Source of the DNA: Candidatus Altimarinota bacterium
GTDB lineage: Bacteria > Patescibacteriota > Gracilibacteria > BD1-5 > UBA6164
Length of the DNA: 33,850 bases
Assembly: GCA_030683605.1 (NCBI GenBank)
Contig: JAUXPL010000057.1
Span: 1 to 33,850, forward strand
Direction of reading: 5' to 3'
Numbering within the stretch: the first letter of the stretch is position 1; each line of letters begins with the position of its first letter. The position numbers and the translations under genes were made by a program. The notes below the pieces were generated by a model that was not told where the DNA came from, did not search any database, and worked only from the letters and a program-made list of their open reading frames with translations. Of the stretch, positions 6,187-9,452 are shown piece by piece.

Positions 6187-7608
6187 TTATCTCAATTTTT
6201 CTCTTAAAAATTCATTTAGTTTACTTATTTCTACCAATTCTTGTTCCATACTATCTCTATATCTAACAGTTACTTTTCATTCATCGTAATTATTACTATC
6301 AATAGTTACACAAAATGGTGTACCTATCTCATCAAATCTAGCATATCTCTTACCTACTGATCATACATCATCATATTCACATACGAAATCTTCTGTCAAT
6401 TGGTCATATATTGGTTTCGCTATGTCTGAAATCTTTTTTACTACTGGTAAAACTCATACTTTTATAGGTGCTACTTTTGGATCTAGTTTCAAATAAGTTC
6501 TAGTTTCTTCATCCTTTTCTTCTATAGTATAGGCATCTATAAGTGTAGCCAAAAATAGTCTAGTTAATCATACAGATGGTTCTATTACGTATGGTATATA
6601 TTTCTTGTTATTTACTGGATCAAAATATGATAAATCTTGCTTTGATTCTGACATATGTGCTTTTAAATCAAAATCAGTTCTATCAGCTATACCCCATAAT
6701 TCTCACCAACCAAATGGGAATTTGAACTCTATATCTGTAGTAGCATTAGAATAATGTGATAATTCATCTGCATCATGATCTCTGAATTTAAGTGATTCTG
6801 GTCTGATACCTATTTTATTCGTCAAGAAATTCATACAGTCTTGTTTCCATCTAGCGTGTTCCGCCAAATCAGTACCTGGTTCACAGAAATACTCTATTTC
6901 CATTTGTTCGAATTCTCTAGTTCTAAATATGAAGTTACCTGGAGTAATCTCATTTCTAAATGCTTTACCTACTTGAGCGACTCCAAAAGGTATTTTTCTC
7001 CTACTACTTCTCAATATGTTAGCGAAGTTTACGAATATTCCTTGTGCAGTTTCTGGTCTCAAATATATTGTAGCAGAACTATCATCTGTTACTCATTGAG
7101 ATGTTCTAAACATTAGGTTGAATTTCTTTGCATCTGTCCAATCTCCTGCAACTCAAGTATTAGGATTTTTAACTCATTCTCATCTCATTACTTCAGTTTG
7201 TTTTTCTAGTGACCATGATTCTGGTATCAGATTTGTTACACCATATTTATCATGTAAATATAGTCCTGAATCTACAGATTTTTCTATCAAGTCTTCTAAT
7301 AATTTATCAGCTCTAAATCTCTCTTTTGTATTTTTATCATCTATCAATGGATCACTAAATCATCCTACATGTCCTGAAGCCACCCACACTTGTGGGTTCA
7401 TAAGAATTGCAGAATCTTGAAGCATCATATCTGATCTTTTCTGTACGAATTCTTTAATCCATAGATTTTTTATATTTTCTTTTAATAAAGAACCATAAGG
7501 ACCGTAATCCCATGAATTAGCAAGTCCACCATATATTTCACTACCTTGGAAAACAAATCATCTGTTTTGTGAAAGATTTACTATATCTTTCATATTAAAA
7601 TTACTCAT
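6187..7608 (-). CDS. glyS: Glycyl-tRNA synthetase, homodimeric class II
   Basis: 473 residues. It charges tRNA-Gly and is of the alpha2 (eukaryote/archaea/Firmicute-like) type, not the GlyQ/GlyS tetramer. Seen in order: N-terminal [20 protein letters not shown], the [19 protein letters not shown] block, [14 protein letters not shown], the motif 2 region with [17 protein letters not shown] and [16 protein letters not shown], then a C-terminal anticodon-binding domain ending [16 protein letters not shown]. Here it must presumably also supply glycine to the tRNA that reads UGA. It is preceded by a glycine T-box leader (7722-7876), so expression should respond to uncharged tRNA-Gly. Start is ATG at 7608; no SD is evident. 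Confidence 0.96.
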
Positions 7609-7635
7609 AAGACAATAATTAAGTTTTAAATTACC

Positions 7636-7707
7636 TCTCTCTTGTCCGCAGGATACCTCCCTTGCGGGCATAAATTCTCTCTCCCCTTATCAGGGGAAAG
7701 AGGCTCA
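7636..7707. repeat. GC-rich palindromic repeats in the glyS leader
   Basis: Two hairpins: CCGCAGGATACCTCCCTTGCGGG, and CTCTCCCC-TTATCA-GGGGAAAGAG. Composition and sequence style match the repeat cluster at 1-294. They sit between the T-box terminator and the glyS start and are transcribed as part of the mRNA leader. Confidence 0.6.
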
Positions 7708-7721
7708 AAAAAATTAAAATA

Positions 7722-7876
7722 GAAAAAGACCCTAAAAGGCAATTTCTATTATTATTGCCTTCAGGGTCCTATAAATTTATATATTAGGACGGTTCCACCC
7801 GAAGTATTTACTTTTGTAAAATATATCTTAAAATCTGGATTCCACCTCAGATTTATAAACTAAAATATCTTTACTT
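7722..7876 (-). ncRNA. T-box leader (glycine-responsive) upstream of glyS
   Basis: On the minus strand the T-box core GGGUGGAACCG (complement of 7787-7804) is followed by a strong terminator, GACCCUGAAGGCAAU…AUUGCCUUUUAGGGUC-UUUUU (complement of 7722-7768). The competing antiterminator can be drawn: CUUCGGG pairs with CCUGAAG, GUCC pairs with GGAC, and the 7-base bulge UGGAACC is left between them, the standard T-box architecture. UGGA in the bulge pairs with a 3' UCCA end, as expected for tRNA-Gly with U73. Upstream is only a short Stem I, GUAAAG…UUUUAC enclosing an apical hairpin (7831-7854) with loop AGGUGGAAUC. That loop contains GGU and GGA, possible glycine specifiers. The specifier assignment is tentative; the T-box itself is well supported. 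Confidence 0.85.
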
Positions 7877-7882
7877 AATTGT

Positions 7883-7910
7883 AATATATGTAGTTTTTAT
7901 AAAAAATCAA
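7883..7910 (-). promoter_or_regulatory. Promoter of the glyS T-box leader
   Basis: Minus strand TTGATT, 16-base spacer, TATATT. It places the RNA start near 7876, just 5' of the short Stem I and downstream of the leuA stop. Confidence 0.55.
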
Positions 7911-7928
7911 GAAAAAATACAATATCTT

Positions 7929-9452
7929 TTAATCATTTTTTATCCTATCCAAACAATTTACAAAAGCTATAATAGAGGCTTTTACTATATCTTTATCTAG
8001 ACCATATTCTTCATATACATTTCAATCATGCTCTATTTTGATTGATACTTTTGCTTCAGATGATGGACTAGATGATAGTGCTGAAATAGAGAAATCGATT
8101 AAATTTATATCAGTCATATTAGTAGCTTTTATGATTGCATTATAGATAGAGTCAACTGGTCATACTCATTTTGCCATACATGTTCTGATTTCTCAATTTA
8201 CTTTTAACTCTATAGATGCAGAAGAATTATTATTATCCAGATTTATAAAATAATTATCCACTGTTATATTTCTATTCAATTCAACTCAGCTAGATATAAT
8301 TATATTTCTAATATCATCTATTGTAATAAATGATTTACCAGTATCAGTAGATATTAGCTTAAATTTATCAAAAACCTCATTTAATTTAGCATCATCCAAT
8401 TCTAATCAAAAATACACACTTATAGCATTTTTTAATCATGCTCTACCAGACTGATTTGTGAGTACAAAACTTTGTTCTATTTGGTATCATATTTCTTCTG
8501 GTGAGATGATTTCATATGTAGATTTATTTTTACTTGCTCAGTCTTGGTGAATTCCAGAACTATGTCTAAATACATCTCATCAAGTAACAGGATGATTATC
8601 TGATATTCTTTTTCATATATTATTTGATATAAACTGTACTAATCCACTAGTTTTTTTCATGTCTAGTCAAGGATTTAATTCGAAATCATAAATATCAGGT
8701 CTCTTAATAATATTCATCAGTACTTGTATCAAGTCTGCATTTCAAGCTCTTTCTCAATATGCTGGTGGAATAGTTCATTGAATAATACTTCATCCATTTT
8801 TGATAGCAGACAAGCTATTTGCAACAGCATTTCATAAATCATTGTGCATATGTGCACTGAAATCTATATGTGGGAATTCCCAAGTAAATTCATTAAATAA
8901 TTCTCAAATTTCGCCTGGTTGAGCAAATCATACGGTATCTGGAATATTTATTATATTTGCTCATGATTTAACTGCTGCATAAATACTCTCAAACAAAAAA
9001 TCTTTTTCTGTTCTCAGTGCATCTTCAGGTGAAAACATTATCATATCAGTATCATGATTGAACTTGGCTCTTGCAAAAGCTACTTTTTCATGAATATGTG
9101 TTAATATCTGTTCTTGAGTCATTTTTAGTTTGAAGTCTCTATGCATAGGTGAAGTACCTATAAAAGTATGTATTCATCTATTTTTTGAATCTTGTAGAGA
9201 ATCATATGATGAGTTAATATCGTTTTCATTTAATCTAGCTAAACTAAATACTCTAGCATTAACGATTCTAGATATTTCCCTAATAGCTTCTGTATCTCCA
9301 ACCGAAGAAGCAGAAAAGCCTGCTTCTATCATATCTACTCAAAAATCGTCCAATTTTTTAGCTATTGCTATCTTTTTCTCTGGTGTCATATTTACTCACG
9401 CTGTTTGTGCTCCATCTCTAAGCGTAGTATCAAATATTTGTATTTTGTTCAT
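7929..9452 (-). CDS. leuA: 2-isopropylmalate synthase
   Basis: 507 residues. It condenses 2-oxoisovalerate and acetyl-CoA, the first committed step of leucine synthesis. The TIM-barrel start IFDTTLRDGAQTAGVNMTPE carries the DTTLRDG signature, and HMHNDLGNAVANSLSA (around residue 205) carries the metal-binding HxH. GVFRHSSGIHQDG-type residues appear as VFRHSSGIHQDGASKN. A C-terminal domain of about 130 residues (NSSASIELKVNGEIRTC and on) matches the regulatory LeuA domain. Homocitrate or citramalate synthase are the main alternatives, but the Leu-codon attenuator directly upstream argues independently for leucine synthesis. No other leu gene is in the window. Confidence 0.9.

Follow-up and report, generated by a model that had tools for sequence, protein, structure and literature searches.

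A predicted transcription-attenuating T-box riboswitch of minimal architecture upstream of glyS in Gracilibacteria

T-box classes and the glyS leader

Four classes of T-box riboswitches have been described, in which tRNA binding is augmented by an IDTM, by the Stem II S-turn, or by both (PMC10482949), and those that act on transcription generally require a long Stem I with an elbow-binding IDTM (PMC7583486). Here we analysed a window of 33,850 nucleotides from Candidatus Altimarinota bacterium (GCA_030683605.1, contig JAUXPL010000057.1), in which a candidate leader on the minus strand (7910..7721) is placed between leuA (7929-9452) and glyS, which lies downstream. As read from its predicted structure, this leader fits none of the four published classes, since classes I-IV each have an IDTM and/or Stem II. 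In common with class II, known from Bacillus subtilis glyQS (PMC10482949), it appears glycine-specific, seems to act by transcription termination, lacks Stem II, and combines a UGGA bulge with an alternative antiterminator and terminator. In class II, however, Stem I is long, carries an elbow-binding IDTM and holds the specifier in an internal loop, whereas Stem I here (7874-7816) ends at the specifier, without a distal IDTM and without room upstream for one. With the ultrashort class III of Nocardia farcinica ileS (PMC10482949) the leader shares a short Stem I without IDTM and an apical-loop specifier, but the loop of class III has 5-6 nt and that of the present leaders mostly 7-9 nt. Class III moreover requires Stem II, whereas here the 30-61 nt that separate Stem I from the core contain at most a Stem III, and neither a Stem II S-turn nor a pseudoknot IIA/B. 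Finally, class III is mostly translational, ileS being the example, whereas this leader has a predicted strong intrinsic terminator before glyS (thrS elsewhere) in place of a translational output. A class III-type Stem I is thus joined to two traits of class II, its terminator and its lack of Stem II, and hence neither the IDTM nor Stem II would be available as an aid to binding.

The features common to T-boxes are otherwise present, namely a 7-nt UGGN-ACC bulge between the covarying helices A1 and A2, a mutually exclusive terminator, a specifier that fits the regulated gene (GGN before glyS, ACC before thrS) and, as the variable base of UGGN, an A that complements U73 of tRNA-Gly. All sequence-level criteria that we tested identify the element as a T-box, with two exceptions, its Rfam score and, for the window, Stem III. 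The antiterminator core resembles that of RF00230, but in the window no family reached the Rfam gathering score and no T-box came up even with E<=10 allowed, so that the check with the Rfam T-box model proposed alongside the original prediction came back empty; the same model also found none over the whole genome of this organism. Weak Rfam matches such as rli56 (E=0.25) fall on the terminator and were set aside as chance. As a positive control, RF00230 recovered 6 of 9 clostridial or bacillar glyS leaders with 99-105 bits and, run alongside, 0 of 8 Gracilibacteria leaders. The standard Rfam T-box model thus overlooks these Patescibacteria switches, and since TBDB (PMC7778990) relied on RF00230 together with a class model for Actinobacteria, it probably missed them as well. 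We found no report of T-boxes from Patescibacteria in the open-access literature, and one may exist in a subscription journal.

The novelty lies in the architecture, that of a T-box with a predicted transcription terminator but neither IDTM nor Stem II. With a natural transcriptional T-box that lacks either aid, the minimal requirements of tRNA sensing could be tested directly, and on an RNA of only about 150 nt, and these leaders place T-boxes firmly in Patescibacteria, before glycine and threonine synthetase genes and, here, in an ultrasmall bacterium.

Layout of the leader

Along the minus strand, a promoter-like site is followed by a short Stem I, the T-box antiterminator and a terminator (Table 1). 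The antiterminator is perfect; it and the terminator are mutually exclusive, because segment 7770-7759 is common to both, and the terminator is predicted to be strong (-22.3 kcal/mol, z=-5.2).

Table 1. Predicted elements of the glyS leader in the window, in the direction of transcription
Feature	Position	Strand	Remarks
Promoter-like site TTGATT-16-TATATT	7883..7910	-	9/12 matches; alone not above shuffles
Stem I, complete	7816..7874	-	Fold and arm-swap across 55 leaders
Stem I lower helix	7874-7861 / 7830-7816	-	14 bp, one bulged A
Stem I 5' internal loop	7860-7855	-	Asymmetric, 6 nt
Stem I upper helix	7854-7848 / 7837-7831	-	7 bp
Stem I apical loop AGGUGGAAUC	7847-7838	-	10 nt
Specifier codon GGA	7841..7843	-	Flanked by U7844 and A7840 (U-GGA-A); UGG[A/C/U/G]A at the aligned position of relatives
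Linker AAAAGUAAAUA	7805..7815	-	RRRNG-like AAAAG; independent Stem III absent
T-box antiterminator	7759..7804	-	Fold and covariation
Antiterminator A1	7804-7798 / 7765-7759	-	CUUCGGG/CCUGAAG, 7 bp
T-box bulge UGGAACC	7791..7797	-	7 nt; UGGA complementary to tRNA 3' UCCA; tRNA-Gly has U73-CCA
Antiterminator A2	7790-7785 / 7771-7766	-	GUCCUA/UAGGAC, 6 bp
Intrinsic terminator	7723..7770	-	5' arm 7770-7754 overlaps A2' and A1'; 3' arm followed by UUUUU
glyS, dimeric glycyl-tRNA synthetase	6187..7608	-	11 in-frame TGA codons for Gly; start codon at 7608 inferred from homologues

A transcript start is predicted near 7876. The promoter match of the window is weak, which counts against our explanation; TTGACA/TATAAT is seen at the equivalent position in many relatives, and in many leaders the promoter-like hexamers stop just ahead of Stem I or of its upper stem. 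Also counting against it, the apical loop of the window has 10 nt where 7-9 nt are usual, and in free folding of this loop GGU pairs with AUC and leaves GGA as a triloop.

A clear Stem III follows an RRRNG-like motif in 31 of 60 leaders, and the other 29, including the window, carry a short AAAAGUAAAA-type linker without an independent Stem III; of the RRRNG-Stem III-AA succession, the window has AAAAG and no independent stem. In some of the leaders without Stem III, the base of Stem I could also be part of an alternative hairpin.

The region between the terminator and the glyS start (7612-7715, minus strand) is a dispersed palindromic repeat, REP- or MITE-like, that recurs in the genome as about 40 partial copies and is apparently missing at the equivalent spot in the sister leader L002. 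Hairpins in this region were rejected as parts of the switch, as they belong to the dispersed repeat.

Homologous leaders, specifier and matching tRNA

Leaders were collected via GlyRS homologues, and in dozens of Gracilibacteria genomes glyS turned out to be preceded by the core GGTGGAACCG. Covariation is strong in every helix across the roughly 66 distinct homologous leaders from the order. The pattern GGTGGNACCGNC occurs once in the genome studied here and likewise in most genomes of the family, in which a reversed control pattern was nearly empty. Our model R1 found one element in each of 61 genomes of the order, and these elements head an operon with glyS where downstream contig sequence was examined. 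A covariance model, R2, made from 19 leaders with the window and its two nearest relatives (L002 and L067) left out, matched 7759-7851 of the minus strand with 63.5 bits (E=1.9e-11), the runner-up in the window having E=0.56. In eight genomes (G005, G010, G012, G014, G015, G016, G033 and G115) one to several small genes separate T-box and glyS, and the switch may therefore control more than glyS.

The Stem I hairpin is found in nearly all leaders, its apical loop being mostly of 7-10 nt, and its 5' asymmetric loop looks K-turn-like by eye in some genomes. When arms were swapped between species among 55 leaders, none of 5000 permutations matched the native pairing for any of four helices, with z=-15.6 for the lower stem and z=-13.0 for A2, which were not selected for pairing, and z=-17.7 for the upper stem and z=-10.5 for A1, values inflated by such selection. 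Pair counting in a gap-free composite of 36 sequences gave 97.6% of cells paired vs 74.8% when shuffled and 131 double changes vs 36, and a slide by one column lowered pairing to about 55%. By these measures the window element is confirmed, as a sequence, to be a real T-box leader, and the core, antiterminator, seven-base bulge and strong terminator that had been predicted are all in place, as is the ultrashort Stem I with its apical specifier and covarying arms. The expected conservation of the core in relatives was likewise found, and its position upstream of glyS, here and in relatives, with the terminator in between, supports at the sequence level the proposed control of glyS by transcription termination.

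The apical loop of the relatives reads U-GGN-A, with all four glycine codons represented (41 GGA, 8 GGC, 5 GGU and 3 GGG among 57 leaders) and an A after the codon in 59 of 60 leaders. U, G, G and A are invariant in MAFFT alignments of sequences chosen by the same criterion as the hairpins, whose detection demanded UGG, N and a purine, so that the invariance of U is partly imposed. Since the loop of other Patescibacteria likewise carries GGN in glyS leaders, and ACC in thrS leaders, GGA is the specifier, rather than GGU or UGA. Of the two triplets originally pointed out in the loop, GGA is thus upheld, and GGU was rejected, the aligned column being GGN followed by A.

The genome contains tRNA-Gly(UCC), the only NCC tRNA-Gly found, and tRNA(UCA); no tRNA-Gly(GCC) is among its 28 listed tRNAs. 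The anticodon loop of tRNA-Gly(UCC), CUUCCAA, offers U33-UCC-A37 for pairing with UGGAA over five bases, in agreement with a glycine T-box, whereas that of tRNA(UCA), CUUCAAC, mismatches GGA at codon position 1. A tRNA-Gly pattern search gave 25 matches in 23 genomes, a tally that leaves out most f2 genomes, which the pattern missed; UCC was found in all but one match. The exception is G036, with a GGC specifier, where GCC was found and UCC as well. All f1 genomes with a match have anticodon UCC in a CUUCCAA loop, and where the specifier is GGU or GGG, UCC was the sole anticodon found, implying wobble. Among the 28 listed tRNAs, U73 is restricted to those for Gly, Thr and UCA. The proposed fit of UGGA to tRNA-Gly holds in so far as U73 pairs, but it cannot decide alone, as all three share this base; the bulge thus restricts the candidates, and it is the specifier that decides among them. 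Sequence and comparison show the helices and the alternative folds, the specifier and the bulge, the gene and the matching tRNA.

Proposed mechanism, alternatives and spread

Taken together, the element is very probably a transcription-attenuating T-box riboswitch of minimal architecture acting on glyS. We propose that the nascent leader would fold into the short Stem I and expose U-GGA-A in its apical loop, and that uncharged tRNA-Gly(UCC) would dock by loop-loop pairing of 5 bp with its anticodon loop U33-UCC-A37. The free tRNA 3' UCCA might then pair with the UGGA bulge, stabilise the antiterminator and permit transcription of glyS, while charged tRNA-Gly would be unable to do so and the default terminator would form. 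The binding of tRNA, the kissing geometry, the sensitivity to charging and the transcriptional output are what we infer.

An ordinary class II T-box of the glyQS type, with a long Stem I that we overlooked, is very unlikely. It would account for glycine specificity, transcriptional output and the missing Stem II, and the leaders of clostridial glyS homologues are indeed RF00230-positive, but only about 80 nt lie between the leuA stop and the apical loop, promoter-like sites end just before the upper stem in many relatives, and the specifier sits within an apical loop whose arms covary. We give even less weight to a decaying remnant in which the terminator alone is still relevant. The window does lack Stem III, and Stem I seems to be lost in the related L253 (clearly) and L254 (possibly); against this, covariation is strong, U-GG-N-A and the bulge are invariant across the order, and the antiterminator of the window is intact.

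Just as improbable is the idea, kept in view by the original prediction, that a UGA triplet in Stem I serves to sense tRNA-Gly(UCA), which belongs to the reassigned UGA codon. The triplet is present at 7849-7847, and tRNA(UCA) exists (L157, on contig C6, with U73-CCA; ARAGORN calls it SeC) with a 3' end that fits the UGGA bulge. However, rather than lying within the apical stem as supposed, UGA straddles stem and loop, and it is missing in relatives; the loop comparison shows conservation of GGN, with which tRNA(UCA) is mismatched, and not of UGA; and the same element precedes glyS genes that are open under the standard code.

Returning to the minimal riboswitch, its relatives extend beyond the order. 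In the rest of the class, R1 gave nothing convincing for glyS; three marginal matches lie before ThrRS-like genes and, by eye, seem to have a longer Stem I. A phylum-wide search with R2 added 16 further genomes, with five leaders before glyS (L288, L289, L296, L300 and L304; GGA or GGC in the loop) and several before thrS, the gene families being confirmed for nine genes and the glyS/thrS ORFs being open under table 11. The thrS leaders L292, L293 and L297, whose genes are confirmed, have 7-nt loops, CUACCAA or CCACCAA, with the codon ACC; together with L299 they represent thrS leaders of other Patescibacteria in which an ultrashort Stem I bears ACC in its specifier loop, and the remaining thrS leaders look longer. 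In lineages with thrS leaders, tRNA-Thr has U73 wherever it was found. The loop codon thus follows the gene, GGN before glyS and ACC before thrS.

In 58 of the 59 genomes at order level RF2 stays under the family cut-off, and the whole order therefore probably recodes UGA. G019 has a full RF2 gene above the cut-off and without in-frame TGA, probably a contamination of that assembly, plus a second, TGA-rich release factor gene. A link of the riboswitch to genetic code 25 was rejected, as leaders of this shape also stand before glyS genes that are open under table 11, and R1, under stricter filters, had no match in the UGA-recoding, UGA-rich sister family f5. Acquisition from Clostridia is not supported by an identity comparison, in which the identity of GlyRS resembled that seen for other class members.

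On balance, we lean towards a fifth T-box architecture across Patescibacteria. Here a kissing contact of about 5 bp between an apical U-codon-A loop and the anticodon loop would stand in for IDTM and Stem II, be fast enough for transcription and change amino acid (Gly, Thr) by a swap of the loop codon, and some lineages would have lost Stem III, and perhaps Stem I too, so that the U73 discriminator is left as the main selector. T-box cores before glyS operons in which Stem I seems to be missing were seen in L252 (G038), which has no UGGNA hairpin, in L254 (G049), which is ambiguous owing to a UGGAA hairpin further upstream, and in L253 (G042), where Stem III directly adjoins a TTGACT-16-TATACT promoter and the bulge reads UGGG.
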